Shown here in pieces: positions 46,351 to 56,680 of a DNA stretch of 64,000 nucleotides. The DNA is from Leisingera caerulea DSM 24564 (GTDB lineage: Bacteria > Pseudomonadota > Alphaproteobacteria > Rhodobacterales > Rhodobacteraceae). Under the pieces are notes generated by a model. That model was not told the origin of the DNA, made no database searches, and worked only from the letters and a program-made list of their open reading frames with translations. Positions within the stretch are counted from its first letter, which is position 1; each line of letters starts with the position of its first letter. A program made the position numbers and the translations under genes. Location of the stretch: positions 1,924,217 through 1,988,216 of the forward strand of contig NZ_KI421513.1 in assembly GCF_000473325.1 (NCBI RefSeq), written 5' to 3'.

Positions 46351-46427
46351 GGTCCCTTAGCTCAACTGGATAGAGCAGCTGACTTCTAATCAGCAGGTTG
46401 AGGGTTCGAGTCCTTCAGGGATCGCCA
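46351..46427 (+). tRNA. tRNA-Arg (anticodon TCT), integration site of the island
   Basis: A complete 77-nt cloverleaf with encoded CCA. The acceptor arms GGTCCCT/AGGGATC pair with one G-T wobble, the D stem is GCTC/GAGC, the anticodon stem GCTGA/TCAGC has loop CTTCTAA, and the T arm holds GGTTCGAGTCC. The 3' half (from 46379) is repeated perfectly at 56631-56680. This tRNA therefore now carries an element-derived 3' half, while the displaced original half sits at the far end of the island. Confidence 0.95.
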
Positions 46428-46428
46428 T
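46379..46428 (+). repeat. attL: 50-bp direct repeat in tRNA-Arg
   Basis: A 50-bp stretch beginning CTGACTTCTAATCAGC and ending GGGATCGCCAT, identical over its whole length to 56631-56680. It covers the anticodon loop, T arm, acceptor 3' strand and CCA of the tRNA. This is the usual attachment core of tRNA-targeting tyrosine integrases. Confidence 0.93.
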
Positions 46429-46832
46429 TTTCTCCTTCAAATTCAGAGCGTTGAGGGTCTGTGCGTTCAGTGGATGTCTTCCGGGCTGTATTTTTCCGGA
46501 ATATTTCCGGATGGATGAGTCTTCAAAACGCGTTTAGGCTTCGCAGTTAGGTTTCTTGGACCAGGCAAGCGGGATTTGTAACCATACATGAGGACCTGAC
46601 CTCTCCCGTCCAACAGGTGAGCCAACTTTTGTGAGTTACCTGCGGCATTCACTTACAATTTGCATCAGGAGGGGGCGGGGTACCCGGCCCGCCGACGGGA
46701 CTCCTGCCTTATCCACTACCTCCCTGACCTGCCAAACGCTCGGAGCAAGTTTCTGGAAACTGTCCAACTGGACGATCCCGCCTGAGGCTTCGGGCTAGGT
46801 TTAGTCTGAATTAACTTCCTAGGAGGACTCTG
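46429..46832. other. Left end of the island, no convincing gene
   Basis: A 404-bp stretch between attL and the small-terminase-like gene. It contains one copy of the 23-bp palindromic repeat (46493-46515). A 61-codon leftward open frame crosses the repeat but shows no family similarity or ribosome site. Packaging (pac/cos) or integrase arm sites could lie here, by analogy with satellites. Confidence 0.5.
46493..46515 (+). repeat. 23-bp palindromic repeat, left copy
   Basis: Identical over 23 bp to 56486-56508 and in the same orientation. Its core is the dyad TCCGGAA-TAT-TTCCGGA. It lies 65 bp inside attL. It may be an integrase or excisionase arm site, or an operator. Confidence 0.8.
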
Positions 46833-47279
46833 GTGGCAAAGGCAGATTGGGAGAAGCGGGCAAAGTTTGCGGAAGCATATGCTGACTCAGGCAATGCAAC
46901 TCAGTCGGCGCTCTACGCAGGTGTGCCGCAGTCCTCGGCGCACAGCATGGGCTATAGGTGGCTGCGTGACCCCCAGGTTACCGAGATGGTGAGAGACGCA
47001 ATGAATGACCGGCTGAAGGCACTCGGCCCTCAGGCAGTAAGGGTTGTGGAACAGATCCTATTGAGCGAAGACGCCAGTCTCCAGTTGCGGTTTCAAGCGG
47101 CTCGCGATGTCCTAGACCGGCTAGGATGGGTGCCGCCAAAACGCCCCGAGCCTGTTGTAAACGCGGGAGTGCGCGCGCTGGAAGAGTATTCGTTAGAGGA
47201 GCTGGAAACTTTGGCCTCCGGCAGCCCATATATTCGGCTGGATGATGAGTCCTTGCGACGAATGGCTGAGCAAGCGTGA
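46833..47279 (+). CDS. Small terminase subunit-like DNA-binding protein
   Basis: A 148-residue protein. Residues 5-55 follow the Terminase_2/TerS helix-turn-helix pattern: KFAEAYADSGNATQSALYAG, then GYRWLRDPQVTEMV. Phage TerS proteins bind pac/cos DNA; satellites such as SaPIs and PICIs carry their own TerS to redirect packaging of helper phage. The start is a GTG-type codon a short distance after TAGGAGG. No large terminase is present. It lies at the attL end, opposite the integrase. An alternative reading is a generic phage-type transcriptional regulator. Confidence 0.72.
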   Translation: MAKADWEKRAKFAEAYADSGNATQSALYAGVPQSSAHSMGYRWLRDPQVTEMVRDAMNDRLKALGPQAVRVVEQILLSEDASLQLRFQAARDVLDRLGWVPPKRPEPVVNAGVRALEEYSLEELETLASGSPYIRLDDESLRRMAEQA

Positions 47280-47441: not shown

Positions 47442-49511
47442 TCAGTATTGAAGGGCAAGAGACGCTCCATCCGGAACAAGTGCTCCGTCCCCAGTCAAAG
47501 CTCTCAGTGCATCGTCAAAGGCCCGCCTATTCTTTTTGTCATCCCCTTTGCCCATTTTAGGGACGGCAAATGTCCTAAAGCCTTCCTGGTCAACTGAGCT
47601 AGGCGCGGCTTCGTCGGGGGCTTTGGCGGTTCCGTCAGCTATGCAATTGTTCAGATACTGCTGGAAGAGGTCCAGAACCTTACGCTGGTTGCCTCCTGCC
47701 CCCTTCTTCGCTGCCGTCCAGGCACTAGGGGCCAAGAATTTCACATAGCAGGTGGTCTTTTTGTCGCCGTCAGTATCGAGGCCGAGAAAATGCGGCTCCA
47801 ACTGGAACGGCAACTGGGCACCTGTCTCCACATTGCGCTGCTTTGTGGCCTCGATGTAACGCTGACCATCCTTCTTGCCGCAGAAAATTTCTGTATCCAC
47901 TGCGGCCCTAAGGGATGAGTGCCCGCGCGCACCACGTTCGATGTCCTTACCGGTGTGGTGCACCAGCATAACATTGGCTCCAGTGGCCCTGCGGATGTAG
48001 TCCACGCGATTGATAAGGAGCCCTACATCAGTCCCGGTGTTCTCATCGGCGCCGCCAATCGAGCGAGCCAACGTGTCGATAACAATGAGAGCAGGGTTTT
48101 CACCGTCGCCCAGGATGTCCTTGGCAAGCTGAACAATGGCGTGAACATCGAGCTCATCGCTATAGAGATCGATTGGCTCCGGGACGAGGTGCAAGTTAGC
48201 ACTCGCGCCTCCAGGCAGTGCTACCAAGCGGTTTCCCAAAGAGCGCCCGCCTTCAGCTGCAAAATAGACCACAGGTCCTCCCCGAACACGCTGACCATTC
48301 CATTCCAGGTTCCTTGCAACATGGTTTGCGATGTTAAGGGCGACAAAGGTCTTCCCAGCATTCGAAGGGCCGTAAAGCATTGAGAATTCGGCGCGACCCA
48401 ACCAGCCCTTGATCAAGTAATCCTGGTCCAGGATTGCCTTGGCCTGATCCCCAGCAATTGTGCTGGACCGAAGAACTTGGGCGCGTTGCCTGATCCGCTC
48501 TTCGGCTTCAGTGGCCGCAGCAGAGGGGCTGTGAAGAGCGGCAGGCGTTGTGCAGGCAGTCACCGGTTGAGATTTTAACAGACCGCTGACGTCAATCTCT
48601 CCGAGGGCCTCAGAGGTACGGTACTTCCCCCCGATGGCGCTGAGGTTTGCGCCATTCTGTTGTGCCAGAACTGCAATGCAGGGAGCGCCCGACGACTTGT
48701 CAACTGACAGAGTCTTCCAGATCTGGTCTACTTCCCCCGGCTTGTATTTTGTCCCGCCAGACGACCACTGATCAGCAAGCGCCAGCCCGTCAGACGACCC
48801 GCTTGTTGCGGTATAGACCGCACCCAGCATCCGCAGCCAGTCAATGTATTCAATGTCAGCGGGGACATGAAAGAGAAGCTCTGCCAGTTCAGCCAGTGAG
48901 GTGGTCTTACGCTCGTTCGGACAGGAGCGTTCGCCCTGAGGTGCGAGTGCGGCTTCTGCGGGTTGAGCTGCACTTGAAAGCTTTGGCCAATCCGGCATCG
49001 GTGCGATGGTTTGCTCCAGATCTTCCCAACTGTAGGCGCCAAAGCAAGCTGTTCGTTTAGAGTATGCCTCAGCAGGCGGAGCCAGCACGTAGCCATTGTA
49101 CTTGATTTCAACGCCTTTACACAGTTCCCCGGGGAACCGCAGACCCTGAGGAGCCCTGAAGTAAAGATGCCTGCCTCCACCCGCAGTCCGTGCGCAAAGG
49201 GTGTTAGGGAGTTTCAAACCGTGAACCCCCAGGAAGGTGTCGAAGGCTTCTGCGTTGTCGATGTCGATGACAACAAGGCCTGACTTTGCACAGGCTACAG
49301 CAGGCTGGGCGTCAGGAATGCCTTGCGCCCAAGTGTAGACCTGATGCAGGTCTTGGGTAGCGTCTTTGAAGCCGTGCGCCGTAGCAGGCCGCTTATCTTT
49401 TCGGCAGGGCAAGACGTAAAACCCCCGGTCGATGAGGCTTTTGCAAGCAAAGTAGAAGTCCAGAGCCGCGCCATTGAGCTGATGTTCGCGCGGGACAGCC
49501 TGTCCGTCCAT
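47442..49511 (-). CDS. Primase-polymerase / RepA-type helicase fusion
   Basis: About 689 residues. The N-terminal bifunctional primase-polymerase domain has the metal motif GLVVIDIDNAE and GGGRHLYFRAP; a middle linker with a PriCT-like part follows (about 210-290). The C-terminal RecA/AAA_25 helicase of the RepA type has Walker A LYGPSNAGKTF, Walker B LIVIDTLAR and MLVHHTGKD. It should prime and unwind DNA for autonomous replication of the island. ATG 49511 has AAGGG eight bases upstream; GTG 49520 is an alternative that overlaps the upstream gene's stop. Confidence 0.88.
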   Translation of the reverse strand: MDGQAVPREHQLNGAALDFYFACKSLIDRGFYVLPCRKDKRPATAHGFKDATQDLHQVYTWAQGIPDAQPAVACAKSGLVVIDIDNAEAFDTFLGVHGLKLPNTLCARTAGGGRHLYFRAPQGLRFPGELCKGVEIKYNGYVLAPPAEAYSKRTACFGAYSWEDLEQTIAPMPDWPKLSSAAQPAEAALAPQGERSCPNERKTTSLAELAELLFHVPADIEYIDWLRMLGAVYTATSGSSDGLALADQWSSGGTKYKPGEVDQIWKTLSVDKSSGAPCIAVLAQQNGANLSAIGGKYRTSEALGEIDVSGLLKSQPVTACTTPAALHSPSAAATEAEERIRQRAQVLRSSTIAGDQAKAILDQDYLIKGWLGRAEFSMLYGPSNAGKTFVALNIANHVARNLEWNGQRVRGGPVVYFAAEGGRSLGNRLVALPGGASANLHLVPEPIDLYSDELDVHAIVQLAKDILGDGENPALIVIDTLARSIGGADENTGTDVGLLINRVDYIRRATGANVMLVHHTGKDIERGARGHSSLRAAVDTEIFCGKKDGQRYIEATKQRNVETGAQLPFQLEPHFLGLDTDGDKKTTCYVKFLAPSAWTAAKKGAGGNQRKVLDLFQQYLNNCIADGTAKAPDEAAPSSVDQEGFRTFAVPKMGKGDDKKNRRAFDDALRALTGDGALVPDGASLALQY

Positions 49512-49513
49512 AC

Positions 49514-49765
49514 TCAGCACCCTTGTTGTTTGAAACCGGGGGTGCTGGCAAGCTTCTCCGCCGCGAAGTCCAAAGCTTCCTTGACGTTGTGCACCGCCTT
49601 TTTGTTCGGGTGCTTCACGATGAGAGGCCAGGAGCGAATGGTGCGCGCGGTCACAGGGAACAGACGCTTGCTGATGATTTCGGCCAGCGTCGCACGATCA
49701 GCGTACTCAGGCAGGAGCTCTCCGCACTTGCATACGGCGCGCTTGGGATTGACGTCACTAGTCAT
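49514..49765 (-). CDS. Small DNA-binding protein upstream of the prim-pol gene
   Basis: An 83-residue protein. An N-terminal CKCG is followed by ATLAEIISKRLFPVTARTIR, a helix-turn-helix reminiscent of AlpA/excisionase-like or MerR-type winged helices, then a lysine-rich helical tail. It ends at the start region of the prim-pol gene, so the two are coupled. It is probably a replication accessory factor, an excisionase or an operon regulator; I cannot decide which. Confidence 0.65.
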   Translation of the reverse strand: MTSDVNPKRAVCKCGELLPEYADRATLAEIISKRLFPVTARTIRSWPLIVKHPNKKAVHNVKEALDFAAEKLASTPGFKQQGC

Positions 49766-50210
49766 GACTGGTCTCCAGTAGGTTCGACTACCCGCTAGCA
49801 GACGTGTTTCGCCAGAATCTGTCGTCCCGGTTAGAGGGGTTTTTTTAAGGCATGCGTTAACTAATTGAAAACAAAAGAAACAAATTGTACATTGCCGCCG
49901 TGTTTAGTCTTTCCGGTTCGCTGTCTCCCGCTTCAGGAGAGGGTAAACCTCGCCTCTTCGTTCATGGGCATATCAATGCGCTGGGTCTCTACCCGGCAGT
50001 ACGCCCGTCTGGTGCGGGATTGGGTGAGTTCTATCGAGCTGGATTCCACTTCCTATGGGATGCATTCGATGCGCCGCCCCCAGTTCAGCGTGCTGAGAAG
50101 GGGGCGGTGTCAGATCACATCGAGACTAATTCAGATTATCCAGACGTTCTTTATGAGCGAGAGACCATCCATGGGCAGGTCACGAGTTTGGACTTATACC
50201 CTCGAGGAGG
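49766..50210. other. Region holding an integrase remnant; no intact gene
   Basis: A 445-bp gap between the small DNA-binding gene and the DUF262 gene. Apart from the decayed recombinase segment (about 49945-50080) I see no functional gene. A T7 run at about 49841 lacks a stem. Confidence 0.55.
49945..50080 (+). pseudogene. Decayed fragment of a second tyrosine recombinase
   Basis: One frame reads STRQYARLVRDWVSSIELDS and then YGMHSMRRP, which corresponds to the C-terminal catalytic part of small tyrosine recombinases, including the HxxR box (HSMR). The preceding PRLFVHGHIN lies in another frame, where an LFPSR-type segment is expected. The later LGH and tyrosine boxes are missing. The similarity rests on motif memory. 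It is opposite in orientation to the intact integrase and is probably a relic of an earlier element. Confidence 0.6.
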
Positions 50211-51836
50211 TCATGCGTCCAACCCAACAGCTTCCAGATGTGGTTTGTAGAACGCCTTTTCAGTTGAGGCGATCTTAGCAAGTCGTCGTTCTATGAACTC
50301 GGAATGGTTATTTTGCTTAACTGCGCGAAGCATATCTTCGTCCAAGAGAAAATCGTGCAACATTTCATCGCAGAAATCGCCTTCAAGAAGCTGAGCTTTG
50401 ACTTTGGCGCTATCTCGGGGATCGACAATAAACCGGTTGGCGTAGCTCGAATAAAGAATTTTTTGGCTGTCAGTGCGTGGGAGCAGCTGGACAAGGCACT
50501 CACGGCCAAACTCCTTGAGTAGCGGCTTGCCTGAGTTCTTCGCGTGATTGTCGGGGTTGTCGGCCATTCGCAACGCGAACGCCTTCGCCCGGACTGCTCT
50601 GAAATCGAATTTGCGATTGAGGGCTCTGACTTCGAAGGGGTCAAACTGTGTGAGATGCCAGTTGCCGGAAACGAGACCTTTCTCTAGGTCCTTTCGCGCT
50701 TTTTCAACGCGGTCGCCTGACATTCCGGCGAAATACTCACCATATGTTGTAGCCCAAACCCAGGAAACCAGATCCGTTTCCTGCTGAGAGTTAAATTCTC
50801 CATATTTCCGGAAGGCGTCAGTGAGAAGGATCAATTGAAACGCGTACGGCAGCAAATCTGGACGTGAAATCCCACACTTCTCAACGATAAACGCGACCGC
50901 CTTCCCACAGGCGGAGCCAACCTCATCAACAACATTTGTTCTTTCTTTGAAAGCTGCGCCGATGTCGTCTGCGTGCTTGCTGTAAACGCCAAAGCCCAAA
51001 GCCAATTTGCACGCCTTCAGAAGGACATCGTCATCCAAGGTCCACCAATCCGGATCGGACAGCTGAGCGACTTTTACCTCGTGAAGTCTAGAATTCAGAT
51101 TGAACTCTGAACCCCAGCTAAGCGCATGAATCATATGCGCTTCGTTCATTGGCTTACCCCGACTGTTAAGTCGTTGAAACGTACGAGTAGCCAGCTCTAC
51201 ATCATCTGTCGCGATCGGGATGACAGGAAGCTTGTATTCTCTGAAAGCTGCAGCAAGCTTGTCACAGGACCCAATCATCTCGTCGATCTCTTCGTCAGAA
51301 CCTGACAAGTTCCGCTGAAATTTTAGCATACCCACGCTGTCAAGTAGCAGGCTCATGGGTAGGGTCGGTTTGCTGGAGTTCTTTCTGAAGTCCTGCTCGC
51401 GAACAAAATCACCAGTTTCAAAGTCGTAGTGGACTGCATAGTTCTCAGTGGGTGGCTCACCGTCCGCTTCAACGAATTCGTCTGCGTCCACATCAATTTC
51501 ATCGAGTGGTGAAAGTGCTCCCAGCAATGTTGTTAATCTCTGAACCCCATCAAGGAGGTACTGGGGTGAACTCCCTGAATGCACAATTTTGTGGGGGCCG
51601 ATGCTTCTGTAGCAGTCAAGCGCAGCTTCAGGCGACCTCCAAACATATATTGCACCCATCGGTATCCCATCCCGGATACTACGAAGTAGCTCCAAGCGGT
51701 CTTCCCAGTCCCAGACAAACGGTCGCTGAAATCTTGGAACCTGAATCAGACCTTCACGTATCTCTTCCAGCAGCTGGCTCAGATAGGTGACGTGCGGGTC
51801 TGCATGATAGCTTGGGGTTTTCATTCTTAACGGCAT
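50211..51836 (-). CDS. DUF262 (GmrSD-N/ParB-like) protein, third gene of the defence-like operon
   Basis: A 541-residue DUF262 protein. Residues 33-42 carry VPRFQRPFVW, and residues 93-104 YLLDGVQRLTTL, the family's DGQQR motif with Q changed to V. LNSRGKPMNEAHM follows at about residue 225. DUF262 is a ParB/Srx-fold NTPase/nuclease domain found in the type IV restriction enzyme GmrSD and in several defence systems. No clear DUF1524 HNH domain is visible at the C-terminus. The start overlaps the TOPRIM-like gene's end by 10 bp. It is AT-richer than the chromosome. Confidence 0.85.
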   Translation of the reverse strand: MPLRMKTPSYHADPHVTYLSQLLEEIREGLIQVPRFQRPFVWDWEDRLELLRSIRDGIPMGAIYVWRSPEAALDCYRSIGPHKIVHSGSSPQYLLDGVQRLTTLLGALSPLDEIDVDADEFVEADGEPPTENYAVHYDFETGDFVREQDFRKNSSKPTLPMSLLLDSVGMLKFQRNLSGSDEEIDEMIGSCDKLAAAFREYKLPVIPIATDDVELATRTFQRLNSRGKPMNEAHMIHALSWGSEFNLNSRLHEVKVAQLSDPDWWTLDDDVLLKACKLALGFGVYSKHADDIGAAFKERTNVVDEVGSACGKAVAFIVEKCGISRPDLLPYAFQLILLTDAFRKYGEFNSQQETDLVSWVWATTYGEYFAGMSGDRVEKARKDLEKGLVSGNWHLTQFDPFEVRALNRKFDFRAVRAKAFALRMADNPDNHAKNSGKPLLKEFGRECLVQLLPRTDSQKILYSSYANRFIVDPRDSAKVKAQLLEGDFCDEMLHDFLLDEDMLRAVKQNNHSEFIERRLAKIASTEKAFYKPHLEAVGLDA

Positions 51837-52825
51837 AGCACCATAACCTCTGAAACGACACCATTGACTTCATCCCAGGCATCCTGGTCTTCGCTAGGTT
51901 GGCTGTTTTGAACCCAAGTCTCAGAATAGATATCTGAACCTATGTCATTGCCAAAACCGGTCTGAAGTTGTTCAAGTGCGCCAACGTCAATGCCTTGGAA
52001 TAGCTCATGCGCGCCGCCTTGTATTTCGTTGGCGTCGGCGGCCAAGCCCTTCTTCATGTGGAGGTGACTTCTTTGCTGCATATTGAGTTTGCACAAGCTA
52101 TCCAACCTGCCGAAGGCCTGCTTTCGGGCCTTTCGGTTCGGACGCTTGGTGGCCCATGATCTTATCCAGCTTAGCATCAAATAGTTCTCGATGGCACGGC
52201 GCTTTAACATAAAGCTGGCTATGGAACGTTCCGTGCAAAAGGTTTCCACAGCTTTTGCTTGAGTGGACGGTGCATTCGGCTTTTTCGCATCGGAATCATA
52301 GACAGTTGCACAAACCTCAAAAAACAGCGGGTTTTTGGCCAAGTGGGACTGCACTTTGTTACTAAGATCTCCGATACCACCGCAATGCTCAAAGCGCAGC
52401 AAATTTTCTCGCTCGAGTTCTTCTAACTTCCTTTTTTGCTGGAAATTCGAGAACGTCAAAAGGAAGTTCCGATCTGCATCGCTATTCTCCACAAAAATGC
52501 GGTAGGGTTCTCTGCCTAACCGGGTGGCATCTTCCACCGTAAGTGAAGGGGGTATTGAGTCCACTCCGATCGTGGCCTGTTCACATACAGAGATTTTCAG
52601 TTTCGCGGGCTCTAGAGCCTCAGACTCCATACTTACGTCAAGCGCCAGTTGCCAGCCGTCCGCCAGGTCTGGCGGAAGCGTTTCAAGCCAATTCGCATAC
52701 TCGATGTCTTCCTCGTTTTCGACATAGATACGATGCCGCCCTCTGACCACGAAATCGGCCAACTCTAGCAAGCGTTGTGTCTTGGGGTTCGCGTCGAAAC
52801 AACTATTCTTTATCTCGAAGATCAT
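51827..52825 (-). CDS. TOPRIM-like (DUF4435/OLD-type) protein, second gene of the defence-like operon
   Basis: A 332-residue protein that I assign by motif to the TOPRIM-like fold: RIFVENSDADRNFL at 109-122 (catalytic Glu113), HCGGIGDL at 147-154, TVYDSDAKKP at 174-183 (Asp177/Asp179), and LKRRAIENYL at 207-216, the last typical of DUF4435 and OLD nucleases. A similar RIYVENEEDIEYANWL occurs earlier at 32-47, suggesting internal duplication. It is probably a metal-dependent nuclease effector. It overlaps the ATPase gene by ATGA and the DUF262 gene by 10 bp. Confidence 0.72.
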   Translation of the reverse strand: MIFEIKNSCFDANPKTQRLLELADFVVRGRHRIYVENEEDIEYANWLETLPPDLADGWQLALDVSMESEALEPAKLKISVCEQATIGVDSIPPSLTVEDATRLGREPYRIFVENSDADRNFLLTFSNFQQKRKLEELERENLLRFEHCGGIGDLSNKVQSHLAKNPLFFEVCATVYDSDAKKPNAPSTQAKAVETFCTERSIASFMLKRRAIENYLMLSWIRSWATKRPNRKARKQAFGRLDSLCKLNMQQRSHLHMKKGLAADANEIQGGAHELFQGIDVGALEQLQTGFGNDIGSDIYSETWVQNSQPSEDQDAWDEVNGVVSEVMVLCR

Positions 52826-54078
52826 TGCTGGCTTTTCTTCCTCATCTGGAAGAGACCCCGAGCCAATTTCGAGTTCGTCCTAAAAACATCAATGGGCCAA
52901 TTGTCTTCGACGGGTCGAGCATCTCCGTCGAATTCGATTAGGTCAATGACGGCGCTTTGCTCAGTGCCTCGCACCCAGTGCACTGCGACATCATTGGGGG
53001 AAATTCGCTTCTCAGCAATCGCCAACTGCATTCCAAGTAACAAGTTCTCTGAGTGCGTCTCTACCAGAATCTTTGGCGCAGCATCAGACGCGGCAACTTC
53101 GGCAACTATGTTCGCCAAATGAACATGAGCATCAGGATGAATGTGGAGCTCGGGGTGCTCCAGAGAAATTACAGGATTTTGCCCGAGGCATCTATGCTTT
53201 GCTAGAGTTAGTAAGCCAATAACTGGCAAGACCCGCCCCATACCCTCTCCGGTATCAACAATATCTATGTCGATATTTTCATCAGAATTTGGGTGCAGGG
53301 TAAAGCGATGCCCGCTTGTACCACCAATTGTTATGCGCGACCGCTGGAAACTATATCCTGTCGCTTGTTCATACCATCTCGATATATCTGATATGACTTC
53401 CGGTGAAGCGGCCTGCAGAATAGACATCATACCGTCGCCCCGTGGAGAAACGCTCTTTGCAGGAGTCGTTTCGACGTAAAAGCGTTCCGGCAAGAGGCAA
53501 TCTGCTGAAAGACTTACGAACCCTTCGCCAAAACTTTTGAGGTGCTCAGCGATAGGCCCCAAGAGCCCTTTCAACTCGTCTGGAAAACCGAACGGTACCA
53601 AGCCATCAAAGTCTAGAGTTACTTCGGAGTGCTCCTTTGAACTCGTAAACTTATAGGTTTTTGTTTCCAGTTCTCTTTGATCTTCGTTCGGGAGCCACTC
53701 GAATACACCTGGACCCTCATCTTGAGTTCTTCTTACGATTAACTCTTCGACAACCTGCCGCCTTCTGTCGGGTAAGTTGAGGATTGTGAATTCAACGGAG
53801 AGATCTCCAAACTCGAATGATAAATGCAGCCTAGGTGACGACGAGTGTTTCGAGAGCAGGCTTGAGAAGTCGCCACCCCTCATAACCTCGGACCGCAGAT
53901 TCAATGGGCTACTAGATCTTGAATTCACTGAGTCCGAAAGAAGCTTCAAAAAGCGAAGGGCAGCGCTTTTTCCAGCGCTGTTATACCCGAAAAAAAGCGT
54001 TACTGGCTTAACAGAAAAATTCGCGCGCTTGTAAAACGCTTTATAGTTCTCTAGCGAAAAATGTTGAAGCCTAGTCAT
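52822..54078 (-). CDS. AAA ATPase (DUF3696/COG4938-like, OLD-type), first gene of the defence-like operon
   Basis: A 418-residue SMC/OLD-like ATPase. Walker A is GYNSAGKS at 31-38 after the usual start RLQHFSLENYKAF; Walker B is ISLEHPELHIHP; the H-switch is VETHSENLLL; and the C-terminus carries DNWPIDVFR, similar to the WPxGFF motif of DUF3696. Such ATPases act as sensors or motors for nuclease partners in defence systems. ATG 54078 is the natural start, because upstream codons lack similarity. The stop overlaps the next start as ATGA. Its promoter should lie in the gene-poor region to the right. Confidence 0.85.
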   Translation of the reverse strand: MTRLQHFSLENYKAFYKRANFSVKPVTLFFGYNSAGKSAALRFLKLLSDSVNSRSSSPLNLRSEVMRGGDFSSLLSKHSSSPRLHLSFEFGDLSVEFTILNLPDRRRQVVEELIVRRTQDEGPGVFEWLPNEDQRELETKTYKFTSSKEHSEVTLDFDGLVPFGFPDELKGLLGPIAEHLKSFGEGFVSLSADCLLPERFYVETTPAKSVSPRGDGMMSILQAASPEVISDISRWYEQATGYSFQRSRITIGGTSGHRFTLHPNSDENIDIDIVDTGEGMGRVLPVIGLLTLAKHRCLGQNPVISLEHPELHIHPDAHVHLANIVAEVAASDAAPKILVETHSENLLLGMQLAIAEKRISPNDVAVHWVRGTEQSAVIDLIEFDGDARPVEDNWPIDVFRTNSKLARGLFQMRKKSQQ

Positions 54079-55195
54079 ATTGCAACATCTTAGATTGTTC
54101 CACTCAGTTTTATGATCGACCGACTGCAAGCAACGCCGACGGTCCAGCAAGGTCTTGAAACTCGATGAGATCAGATTTCTCAAGGAGAAGGCATTTCAGT
54201 TTTTGGTCCGCGAAACGCGGCGTCAGTGCCTTTCTCGTCAGAATGTGCAAGAGCAGGCCGTCAACTGCCATCAGTAGGACAAATTCTTCGGCGGTCCAAG
54301 TGTGTTCGTAGTGTGTGATCGATGGGTGTTATGCGCGGTGAAGCTGACCTGGATGAGCGGGTTAGTTGCAACTGATCAGTCGCCTAACGATCTGTGCCTA
54401 AGTAGGAAACCCCAAGATCCTGGTGACGAAGGTCAGCTTTACGCAGCGTGCACACATTTCCGCTGCATTTCCGCGGATGCCGACTTTCCGCCCATCCTTC
54501 TGATGCTTGCGCAAATGCAGCAAGGGTCACGTGCCCGCGGCGAAAGGCAGCAAAGTTGCGCAACCTGGTCACACGATGCCAGTTTCACGCTGCACCCACG
54601 ACGAGCGGCAGTTCTTGATCGCGGCAGCACGGCGAAAATCGAGGCCTGATCTGGCGAAAGGAATGGATTTGCAAAGGGCGCTTTCTGCGCTTCGCTGGCG
54701 CCGCTGTAGCCCACAGCACCGAAGAATGCCAAGTCGCGTCACCGAGCGTCCGCTTCCGGGCAATCCATAGGGGGATGCGCCTTTAACCTGCCGTTCGCGC
54801 ATACTGCAGCGAACGTCCGCAGTCCGCTCGACCCTCATCTGCAAGCTCTTACCTGGTTGAGTGGTCTTCTGGTCAATATGCAAGCTCCAACTCGACGAGG
54901 CCATTCGCGGCTGGCGTCTTCAAACAGCTTTGGCTGTACGTGCTTGAACCAGAGGCTGCAGCCGAGCAAGTCGGTGGCCAGCGCACTGCGGGTCCGTAAC
55001 GGCATTTAGGGCCTGGTCAATGGCCTTTCACCACGTAGACCCGCAGTTGGGCGCCAATGCTTTCGGTCAAAGCGCTTCAGGAGAGACTGGGAGGGGCGCA
55101 GCGCCGTTGAGGTTGAGTTCAGGGGGGTGTCCCTTGGCAAATCCTTTGGCAGCTGTGGCCAAATTTGTAAGCGGAAGGCGAGCGCTGCGCGAGCA
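54079..55195. other. 1.1-kb gene-poor stretch inside the island
   Basis: Several short open frames in all directions have arginine/serine/cysteine-rich translations with no motif. Only the 54110-54328 segment reads like protein. The promoter for the defence-like operon must lie in its left part. I see no RNA gene. Confidence 0.5.
54110..54328 (-). pseudogene. Open 72-codon segment resembling a gene 3' end
   Basis: The minus-strand frame between stops at 54329 and 54110 reads naturally as protein (TWTAEEFVLLMAVDGLLLHI, then LKCLLLEKSDLIEF). It has no plausible ATG at its beginning. The pattern loosely resembles the C-terminal ligand domain of TetR-family regulators. It is best read as a truncated gene remnant upstream of the ATPase gene. 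Confidence 0.3.
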
Positions 55196-56479
55196 CTAAC
55201 GCGCCAATGCGTCCCCTTGCCGCAACTGTGTCACAGCGTCTGCACTTCTCCATTCACCGTATGTGACGGCATGGTGCACAATACCAGCCCAAGCGGCCAT
55301 CATGTAAACTTTTTGAGGCCACTGCTTTGAATGGTTGTAGGCGGCTTTAACACCCGAACGGGTGCTGGATTGACGGTGGTTGAGCAGAGCATCTGCGACA
55401 TTTTCGTCGCCGATTCCAAGGTCGGCGAGCACCGTCGAAAACGTCCTCCTTTGGTTATGAAAGTTAAATTTCTCAACGCTGGAACCGTTGCGGATCCTCT
55501 TGGTCAAAGAGTGTCCGGACTGAAATTTCTTTCCTGTGCCATTCAGCGGAAAGACCCTGTTGTCGCTTTCCAGGCTCGGGCAGACGAAGAGGTCTTTTGC
55601 TTTGTCAGGCAGCGGAATGGAAAACGGATCTCCATTCTTGGTGCGTTTCCCCGAAAGGTGCAAGCGACCGCCAGCAATATCGACCTCATCTTTGGTTAGT
55701 TCCGCGAGTTCCCCAAGTCTCAAGGGTACCAGCAGGCTGGCTCGCAGTAGACGCAACTGCACTGGCGAGAGGCCTGTCGTGTTCCAGAGCGCCTGGACCT
55801 CGCAAGCGGAGTAGTAACGCGTACGAGCTTGCGGCGGCTTGGGGCGCCGTTTTTTGGGAATCGCTGAACAAGGATTGATTGTGACCGCTTCGCGCGCTAG
55901 CAAATCATCAAAGAACCGGCTTAGGGCGCCAAGCCTATGGACCGCCCTAGCGCGGCCATTGCTCAAGGCAAGCATCTTGAGGACATCTGCGACCTGCACT
56001 TCATTGGGAGTAGCATCCCCCAAACCCATTTCCTTGATCGCCAAACGCAAGTTGCTGGCCTCAGTCTTTACGTGCTTATCCGAACCGAAGATGCCATTGG
56101 AGATGTAGGCTTCCGCGGCCTCCTGCAAACTCTCTTTGCGCGTCTCAGCCAAGGAGCGAGCCGCTTTCGCAGACTTTCTTTCTGCGGCCGGATCAATACC
56201 AGAAGCCACCTTGACTTTAATACGTGCTGCCTCTTGCCTGGCCTCAGCCAAACTATGCGAGACTGGTGTTCCGATTTTCACGGACTGAGAGGGGTGTTGG
56301 CGCCCATCTGGCCTGTGACCCGTGGGCTTGTAGTCCAGATAGAAACTGGTGGAGCGGGGGCCAACTCGCAACCGCAAGCCGGGAACCTCGGTATCCCGAA
56401 AATTGTGTGCCTCTCCGCGGTTCTCCATTGCCTTACGGATGACGGCCTGTGTGAGCTTGATCTTGGTCGATTTAGCCAT
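55196..56479 (-). CDS. Tyrosine-type site-specific integrase
   Basis: A 427-residue P4/DUF4102-like phage integrase. There is an N-terminal arm-binding domain (GLRLRVGPRSTSFYLDY), a core-binding domain (about 125-210) and a catalytic domain with box-I arginine VPLRLGELAEL, HxxR as FHNQRRTF, LLNHRQ and the nucleophile in AAYNHSKQ. All catalytic residues are present, so it should be active. It recombines the 50-bp att core in tRNA-Arg. ATG 56479 was chosen; the frame upstream crosses the palindromic repeat, which lies just 6 bp before the ATG and may control the gene. It sits at the attR end and reads inward. Confidence 0.93.
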   Translation of the reverse strand: MAKSTKIKLTQAVIRKAMENRGEAHNFRDTEVPGLRLRVGPRSTSFYLDYKPTGHRPDGRQHPSQSVKIGTPVSHSLAEARQEAARIKVKVASGIDPAAERKSAKAARSLAETRKESLQEAAEAYISNGIFGSDKHVKTEASNLRLAIKEMGLGDATPNEVQVADVLKMLALSNGRARAVHRLGALSRFFDDLLAREAVTINPCSAIPKKRRPKPPQARTRYYSACEVQALWNTTGLSPVQLRLLRASLLVPLRLGELAELTKDEVDIAGGRLHLSGKRTKNGDPFSIPLPDKAKDLFVCPSLESDNRVFPLNGTGKKFQSGHSLTKRIRNGSSVEKFNFHNQRRTFSTVLADLGIGDENVADALLNHRQSSTRSGVKAAYNHSKQWPQKVYMMAAWAGIVHHAVTYGEWRSADAVTQLRQGDALAR

Positions 56480-56485
56480 GAAAAC

Positions 56486-56508
56486 TTTCCGGAATATTTC
56501 CGGATGGA
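56486..56508 (+). repeat. 23-bp palindromic repeat, right copy, at the integrase start
   Basis: Identical to 46493-46515 and in the same orientation. It overlaps the 5' leader and ribosome-site region of the integrase gene, so binding there or RNA folding would affect integrase expression. Confidence 0.8.
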
Positions 56509-56630
56509 ATCTGGCCGATAACGGCACGGAGTGGCAAGTCTGGCCATATAGATCAATTGAAAGATATTGTTTTTATAGCACAAAATATCGCTCTCGGCGG
56601 ATCTCGGCAGATTCTGTCAGGTGCCTTGTT

Positions 56631-56680
56631 CTGACTTCTAATCAGCAGGTTGAGGGTTCGAGTCCTTCAGGGATCGCCAT
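56631..56680 (+). repeat. attR: displaced 3' half of tRNA-Arg
   Basis: A 50-bp exact copy of 46379-46428. The 5' half of the tRNA is absent, so this is not a functional tRNA gene. It marks the right boundary of the island. Confidence 0.93.

Follow-up and report, generated by a model that had tools for sequence, protein, structure and literature searches.

PARIS joins an ATPase to a nuclease. According to passages of two papers, its effector AriB is a TOPRIM tRNase (PMC12409363), and the OLD-type class of ATPase activates AriB (PMC12839542). Deletion of either partner is described as non-toxic and abolishes defence (passages of PMC9122126). DUF262 proteins sense modified DNA (GmrSD, BrxU) or phosphorothioate DNA (SspE), and in BrxU and SspE the DUF262 part is a nucleoside triphosphatase (NTPase) coupled to a C-terminal nuclease (passages of PMC10952713 and PMC8565348). 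A further set of candidates, the PDC systems, was found by guilt-by-embedding, with validation mostly pending, and is credited to a 2024 preprint by Payne et al. (as cited in passages of PMC12988326). Here we describe a three-gene operon at positions 50211–54078, on the minus strand, of a 64,000-nucleotide window (the whole stretch of DNA analysed) from Leisingera caerulea DSM 24564. Judged by model matches, the operon is a member of an already catalogued candidate anti-phage system, PDC-M55, and some of its parts resemble those of PARIS, the DUF262 enzymes and Menshen (NsnABC).

The genes are transcribed in the order A-B-C. Gene A (52822–54078) encodes an OLD-type ABC ATPase of 418 residues, identified by Pfam and PADLOC matches; gene B (51827–52825) a predicted TOPRIM nuclease of 332 residues; and gene C (50211–51836) a DUF262 protein of 541 residues with the whole BrxU/GmrSD-like architecture. 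The best PADLOC matches were PDC-M55A for A (2.2e-56), PDC-M55B for B (9e-34) and PDC-M55C for C (2.6e-69), each over most of the protein length. PDC-M55 is a candidate system in PADLOC-DB 2.0.0, and the assignment made here reflects model matches of adjacent genes, not PADLOC's own system rule. An alignment of B with 37 homologues (A1; the fragment P0018 was left out) gave the same picture: all 38 members match PDC-M55B (limit E≤10), and HamA, PD-Lambda-2_A and PDC-S06 were each matched by one member as well (E 0.003–0.008). NCBIfam holds no model that A, B or C matched above its cut-off, and in PHROGs A and C matched only families of unknown function and B none. In the features compared, no difference between the operon and PDC-M55 was found; the system itself is a prediction. 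The first-pass annotation had considered that the combination may be new, which is not borne out, as this existing candidate provides the best match for each of the three genes. The PADLOC search that it proposed thus returned a known combination under a named, apparently untested candidate. The name PDC-M55 is absent from the literature searched (titles, abstracts and passages), which also gave no account of the three-part system; a study from 2025 of domain polymorphism in Menshen (Li et al., NAR gkaf357), outside the search, could include a TOPRIM-bearing relative. In that literature PDC-M55 is a name without a mechanism, and with the predicted folds and conserved sites it becomes a machine of three parts that can be tested at named residues.

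The linkage of the three genes recurs in other genomes. At E≤1e-3, B has 38 homologues besides itself among approximately 5.8 billion proteins, and the nearest named ones are from Roseibium, Rhodovulum and Pseudovibrio. Two surveys based on B were made: a pattern-based scan of species genomes (18 loci) and a search with the PADLOC models across 398 genomes from the phylum, which gave matches in 11 genomes including its own and 13 loci besides its own. Three separate same-strand genes in the order A-B-C were found at 27 of the 31 non-own loci from both surveys; some of the 31 come from the same genome, and L023 and L032, both among the 27, look damaged. The contig of L012 starts within B or shortly before it; C is present, and A was not seen. 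L029 is a weak match (E 4.8e-4) that was left out of later counts, and L019 holds an ATPase-fused TOPRIM protein and is not PDC-M55. An apparent B-C fusion at L016 (7944–9347) joins B 19–242 to C 359–483 with the DUF262 core missing; it is probably a deletion or an assembly fault, and we do not take it as evidence of interaction. A survey that started from C (PDLC04709, E≤1e-20) covered 24 non-own loci: 12 have A and B next to C, and in the remaining 12 neither gene is seen within the fetched flanks. Of these last 12 loci, three (L065, L071, L076) lie near a contig end. Chance does not explain the combination: B has 38 homologues, and genomes far apart show A-B-C in this order. Linkage of the three families, for which the first-pass annotation proposed a survey, is conserved.

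The gene junctions are less constant. A and B overlap by 4 base pairs (ATGA). B and C overlap by 10 base pairs only when C starts at the ATG at 51836; the database copy of C (P0042, 537 residues) is four residues shorter and appears to start at the next in-frame ATG, leaving no B/C overlap. Three overlapping genes had been proposed at the outset, and the open reading frames and the A/B overlap were confirmed. That the overlaps imply stoichiometric production does not follow, because the A-B and B-C spacings vary among relatives, from overlaps up to a 26-base-pair gap (the larger overlaps depend on the choice of start). Only adjacency, a fixed order and a single strand are conserved between relatives. 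Promoter and terminator scans of 49700–55300 gave three of each, against shuffle means of 3.7 and 6.7, and nothing usable.

In A, the Walker A (GYNSAGKS), Walker B (ISLEHPE) and H-loop (ETHSE) motifs could be identified. The GKS of Walker A is present in 29 of 29 aligned rows, the Walker B glutamate E307 in 28 of 29 (with one gap) and H342 in 29 of 29. Pfam matches to AAA_15 (1.7e-16, 61.2 bits) and AAA_21 (1.2e-12, 49 bits) are above the Pfam threshold, as the PARIS rule asks. The early description of A as an AAA ATPase holds, and its DUF3696-type label is unsupported, with no DUF3696 listed by Pfam at E≤1. Among the PADLOC models, NsnB of Menshen ranks next after PDC-M55A (1.2e-36), and AriA is further down (4.1e-17). 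In passages of a study of BREX-associated genes, such ATPases are argued to be OLD-family ABC ATPases that pair with varied nucleases (PMC12839542).

B is made of two parts. Residues 1–100 form a separate domain, and residues 104–332 form the predicted TOPRIM region, with E113, GG at 149–150, D177, D179 and RRAIENY at 209–215. Pfam gave no match of note for B. The TOPRIM-like nature of the protein, proposed in the first-pass annotation, was recovered by structure and fold searches; at the level of sequence, B is also linked to a TOPRIM protein fused to an ATPase. This fusion protein (L019) matches the PDC-M55B profile at 8.3e-9 and is a single open reading frame that passes from an ATPase-type STHS stretch into TOPRIM (LLVEGPKD ... 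GG ... DSE ... RRAIENYL). The three residues singled out earlier for mutation, Glu113, Asp177 and Asp179, are the conserved acidic triad of B: E113 is found in 29 of 31 rows, D177 in 31 of 31, and position 179 is aspartate in 29 and glutamate in 2. The tyrosine of L019 in the E113 column is probably a misalignment, since this protein has LLVEGPKD. Fold-search rows such as lumazine synthase and KaiC were set aside as generic matches. When the B profile was compared with AriA-AriB fusions, the glutamate, the GG region and the DxD were in register, weakly (probability 2.6%, E 0.017; control 0.1%), so that homology of B to AriB on sequence alone is weak. We predict that B is a TOPRIM nuclease encoded on its own, whose acidic triad resembles that of OLD and AriB. 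As a separate observation, the Nitrospiraceae open reading frame at L019:920–1636 looks like a one-protein ATPase-TOPRIM relative, with the ATPase half perhaps in the frame just upstream.

C matches GmrSD_N/DUF262 (PF03235) at 2.1e-25, which confirms the initial assignment of the third gene, and it is BrxU-like along its whole length. It shares with GmrSD and BrxU a DUF262 domain with the DGxQR nucleotide motif; C reads DGVQR at 96–100, and the motif is complete in 28 of 30 rows. It differs from GmrSD, BrxU, SspE and DndI in that the HNH motif (DHIYP/EHILP) is degenerate and the nuclease function appears to lie in another protein, the TOPRIM. The position of EHILP reads VQLLP (449–453), and a global alignment with eight GmrSD-type proteins pairs LVQLLP of C with IEHILP. 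There is no histidine among the 27 residues in the Q450 column, and no GmrSD_C/DUF1524 match was found in Pfam. Judging from these alignments, C has probably lost the histidine of its own HNH active site.

The nuclease of C is apparently inactive, and alongside it are encoded an OLD-type ATPase and a TOPRIM protein whose site is conserved; the economical reading is that C is the sensor and switch, A the gate and B the effector. We lean, with somewhat better than even confidence, towards the PDC-M55 operon being cargo of a satellite-like element and working as such a sensor-gate-effector complex. C, as a GmrSD/BrxU-shaped DUF262 NTPase, would recognise a phage cue, which may be DNA or a DNA-bound state as for its relatives, and would switch through nucleotide binding and hydrolysis. 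A would hold or gate the effector in the manner of AriA in PARIS. B, once released or activated, would cut nucleic acid, either phage DNA or, in an abortive response, host DNA or tRNA; the sequence cannot tell phage DNA from host nucleic acid as the target. We infer the defence function from the PADLOC listing, the parts and the carrier. A wider proposal, for which we would claim rather less than even odds, is that the whole family is a split type IV restriction enzyme, in which a nuclease-less DUF262-HNH protein serves as an NTP-driven sensor that licenses a PARIS-like ATPase-TOPRIM pair and so would connect recognition of phage DNA to an abortive effector. Should C prove to be a sensor that lacks a nuclease of its own, the operon would link two large classes of defence, type IV restriction (GmrSD/BrxU/SspE) and OLD/PARIS-type TOPRIM effectors, and would suggest an exchange of parts among systems, which is also hinted at by the comparison with Menshen.

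The likeness to PARIS lies in the ATPase-TOPRIM pair: an AAA_15/AAA_21 ATPase and a TOPRIM effector fold are both present in the operon. In contrast to PARIS, no DUF4435 (PF14491) match was found in the operon at E≤1, whereas the PARIS rule asks for a partner of at least 27 bits (passages of PMC9122126), and the operon has an extra N-terminal domain in B and an extra DUF262 protein. Compared with OLD and GajA of Gabija, the ATPase and TOPRIM are here split into genes A and B and are joined by a DUF262 protein, and unlike Gabija the operon has no UvrD-like helicase gene.

Menshen was the first comparison suggested, and two of the three genes show a resemblance to it. A resembles NsnB, although PDC-M55A scores higher, and C resembles NsnA (4.1e-10, residues 19–247) but matches PDC-M55C at 2.6e-69. 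The middle gene product is TOPRIM-like. B and NsnC share a place in their operons, which made homology look plausible, but profile comparison speaks against it: the two profiles do not align (probability 0.1%; nine NsnC sequences), and they are taken as unrelated; the NsnC model matches 0 of the 38 members of the B alignment. In a survey based on NsnC (PDLC03879, 299 genomes), 16 of 20 loci have an A-like ATPase nearby, and neither a single-sequence nor a profile search gave a B match at any of the 20. Eight of these loci were viewed gene by gene. One of them (L041) reads ATPase, NsnC and a DUF262-like open reading frame, which is the order of our operon; the flanks were too short for the others. 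Together with the NsnB and NsnA matches, this locus gives some weight to the view that the operon is a Menshen variant by descent, a swapped-effector subtype that kept the NsnB-NsnA pair and replaced NsnC by an unrelated TOPRIM nuclease. Against descent stand the lack of any match between B and NsnC in these comparisons and the far better fit of A and C to the PDC-M55 models. In addition, four draft genomes (G057, G065, G105, G185) match PDC-M55B on one contig and NsnC on another, and PDC-M55 and Menshen thus look like distinct systems. We regard the Menshen variant as the strongest of the alternatives, a possible but doubtful one.

The operon is part of a 10.3 kb element that is bounded by perfect 50-base-pair direct repeats at a tRNA-Arg gene. 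The attachment gene, tRNA-Arg(tct), lies at 46351–46427 on the plus strand (ARAGORN; Rfam 65.8 bits). The left attachment copy (46379–46428) covers the 3' part of this tRNA and is 100% identical to the right copy (56631–56680), where Rfam finds a tRNA-like remnant (29.8 bits against a cut-off of 29). On the minus strand are a tyrosine integrase (55196–56527; Pfam Phage_integrase 2.9e-08 and Arm-DNA-bind_3 1.4e-13; phrog_1 1.8e-35) and a Prim-Pol/AAA_25 replication protein (47442–49520; Pfam Prim-Pol 6e-28 and AAA_25 2.6e-36; phrog_906 8.8e-54). The start of the replication gene is overlapped by a small frame of 83 residues (49514–49765, minus) with no family match in PADLOC, Pfam, NCBIfam or PHROGs. 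A terminase-small-subunit (TerS)-like protein is encoded on the plus strand at 46833–47279 (phrog_51 2.9e-11). An integrase, attachment repeats at a tRNA, its own replication gene and a packaging-related gene are hallmarks of satellites, and the placement of the operon on a satellite, as first annotated, is well founded for a satellite-like element. G+C is 0.48–0.51 over the operon (four 1-kb bins, 50000–53999), 0.55–0.58 in the element's remaining bins, and 0.625–0.66 outside the element. Three relatives reached from the left flank (G407, G399, G402) have the same GNAT-tRNA-Arg neighbourhood with one attachment copy (49–50 base pairs), and 13.8–15.5 kb at their tRNA gave no match to the integrase, primase, TerS-like, 83-residue, A, B or C proteins. 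A clean empty junction is not shown by these genomes, as the right flank is not directly adjacent (approximately 12 kb away in G407), and relatives that carry the right flank have no tRNA within the fetched loci. In the work describing PARIS, P4-like satellites carry defence cargo including PARIS (passages of PMC9122126); the present locus adds an alphaproteobacterial satellite-like element to the carriers of such cargo.

Two side observations concern the ends of the element. A perfect 23-base-pair direct repeat (46493–46515 and 56486–56508) with two TCCGGA palindromes lies just within each end of the element, at 64 and 122 bases from the attachment repeats, and could be an arm-type binding site of the integrase. 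The stretch of approximately 1 kb that separates the operon from the integrase gene (54184–55195) has no convincing open reading frame and no Rfam match, and it may be degenerate or regulatory.

The location between the integrase and the replication gene raises the question of whether the operon serves the element itself, by excluding competing satellites or plasmids or by controlling a helper phage, instead of general anti-phage defence. Two B relatives on IMG/VR predicted viral contigs (L089 and L090), found with the B profile and distant (28% and 26%), would also fit such a role. Relatives of the element genes were sought in flanks of up to 8 kb at the pattern-scan loci and of approximately 1.5 kb at the other PDC-M55 loci. 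Outside its own locus this gave one weak integrase match (L002, 1.1e-05) and no Prim-Pol or TerS-like gene, so the operon seems to travel independently. Searches with B by tblastn against 50,697 phage and 72,556 plasmid records gave no match. We consider an element-serving role unlikely.

Slightly less probable still is a reading in which C does the cutting itself, through an HNH active site that is shifted or unusual, and A and B only regulate it, as in type IV restriction with added regulators. The retained BrxU-like architecture speaks for this, as does N467, which aligns with the second HNH position, an asparagine in 21 of 26 residues. The catalytic column without histidine and the missing DUF1524 match argue the other way, and the acidic triad of B is much better conserved. 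The least probable alternative is a toxin-antitoxin-like module in which B is toxic alone and A and C are antitoxins: a TOPRIM nuclease gene in a tight operon with two partners is what such a module would look like, but in PARIS, the nearest mechanistic relative, removal of either partner is non-toxic and costs the defence (passages of PMC9122126).

The surroundings of other PDC-M55 loci were also scanned. Fourteen of the 18 pattern-scan loci gave 104 flanking open reading frames, and 79 of these, from 12 loci, were searched; the 25 left out include all of L014 and L016. Among the PADLOC matches listed (25 of 145 families) there were at least three C5-methylases (MTase_II, DruM, DrmMII) and at least three mad3, and among the Pfam matches listed (25 of 118 families) at least three DNA_methylase and at least two Uma2; with no control set, these numbers are not counted as evidence. 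Nine of the 120 listed C homologues are longer than C, at 657–666 residues (P0079, P0081, P0084, P0085, P0087, P0091, P0094, P0100 and P0103), and the two that were aligned (P0085 and P0091) owe their greater length to a C-terminal extension of approximately 115 residues. At L066:1483–3992, a gene for 310 residues is followed directly downstream by one for a DUF262 protein, with neither A nor B beside them; the pair may be a further two-gene DUF262 system.

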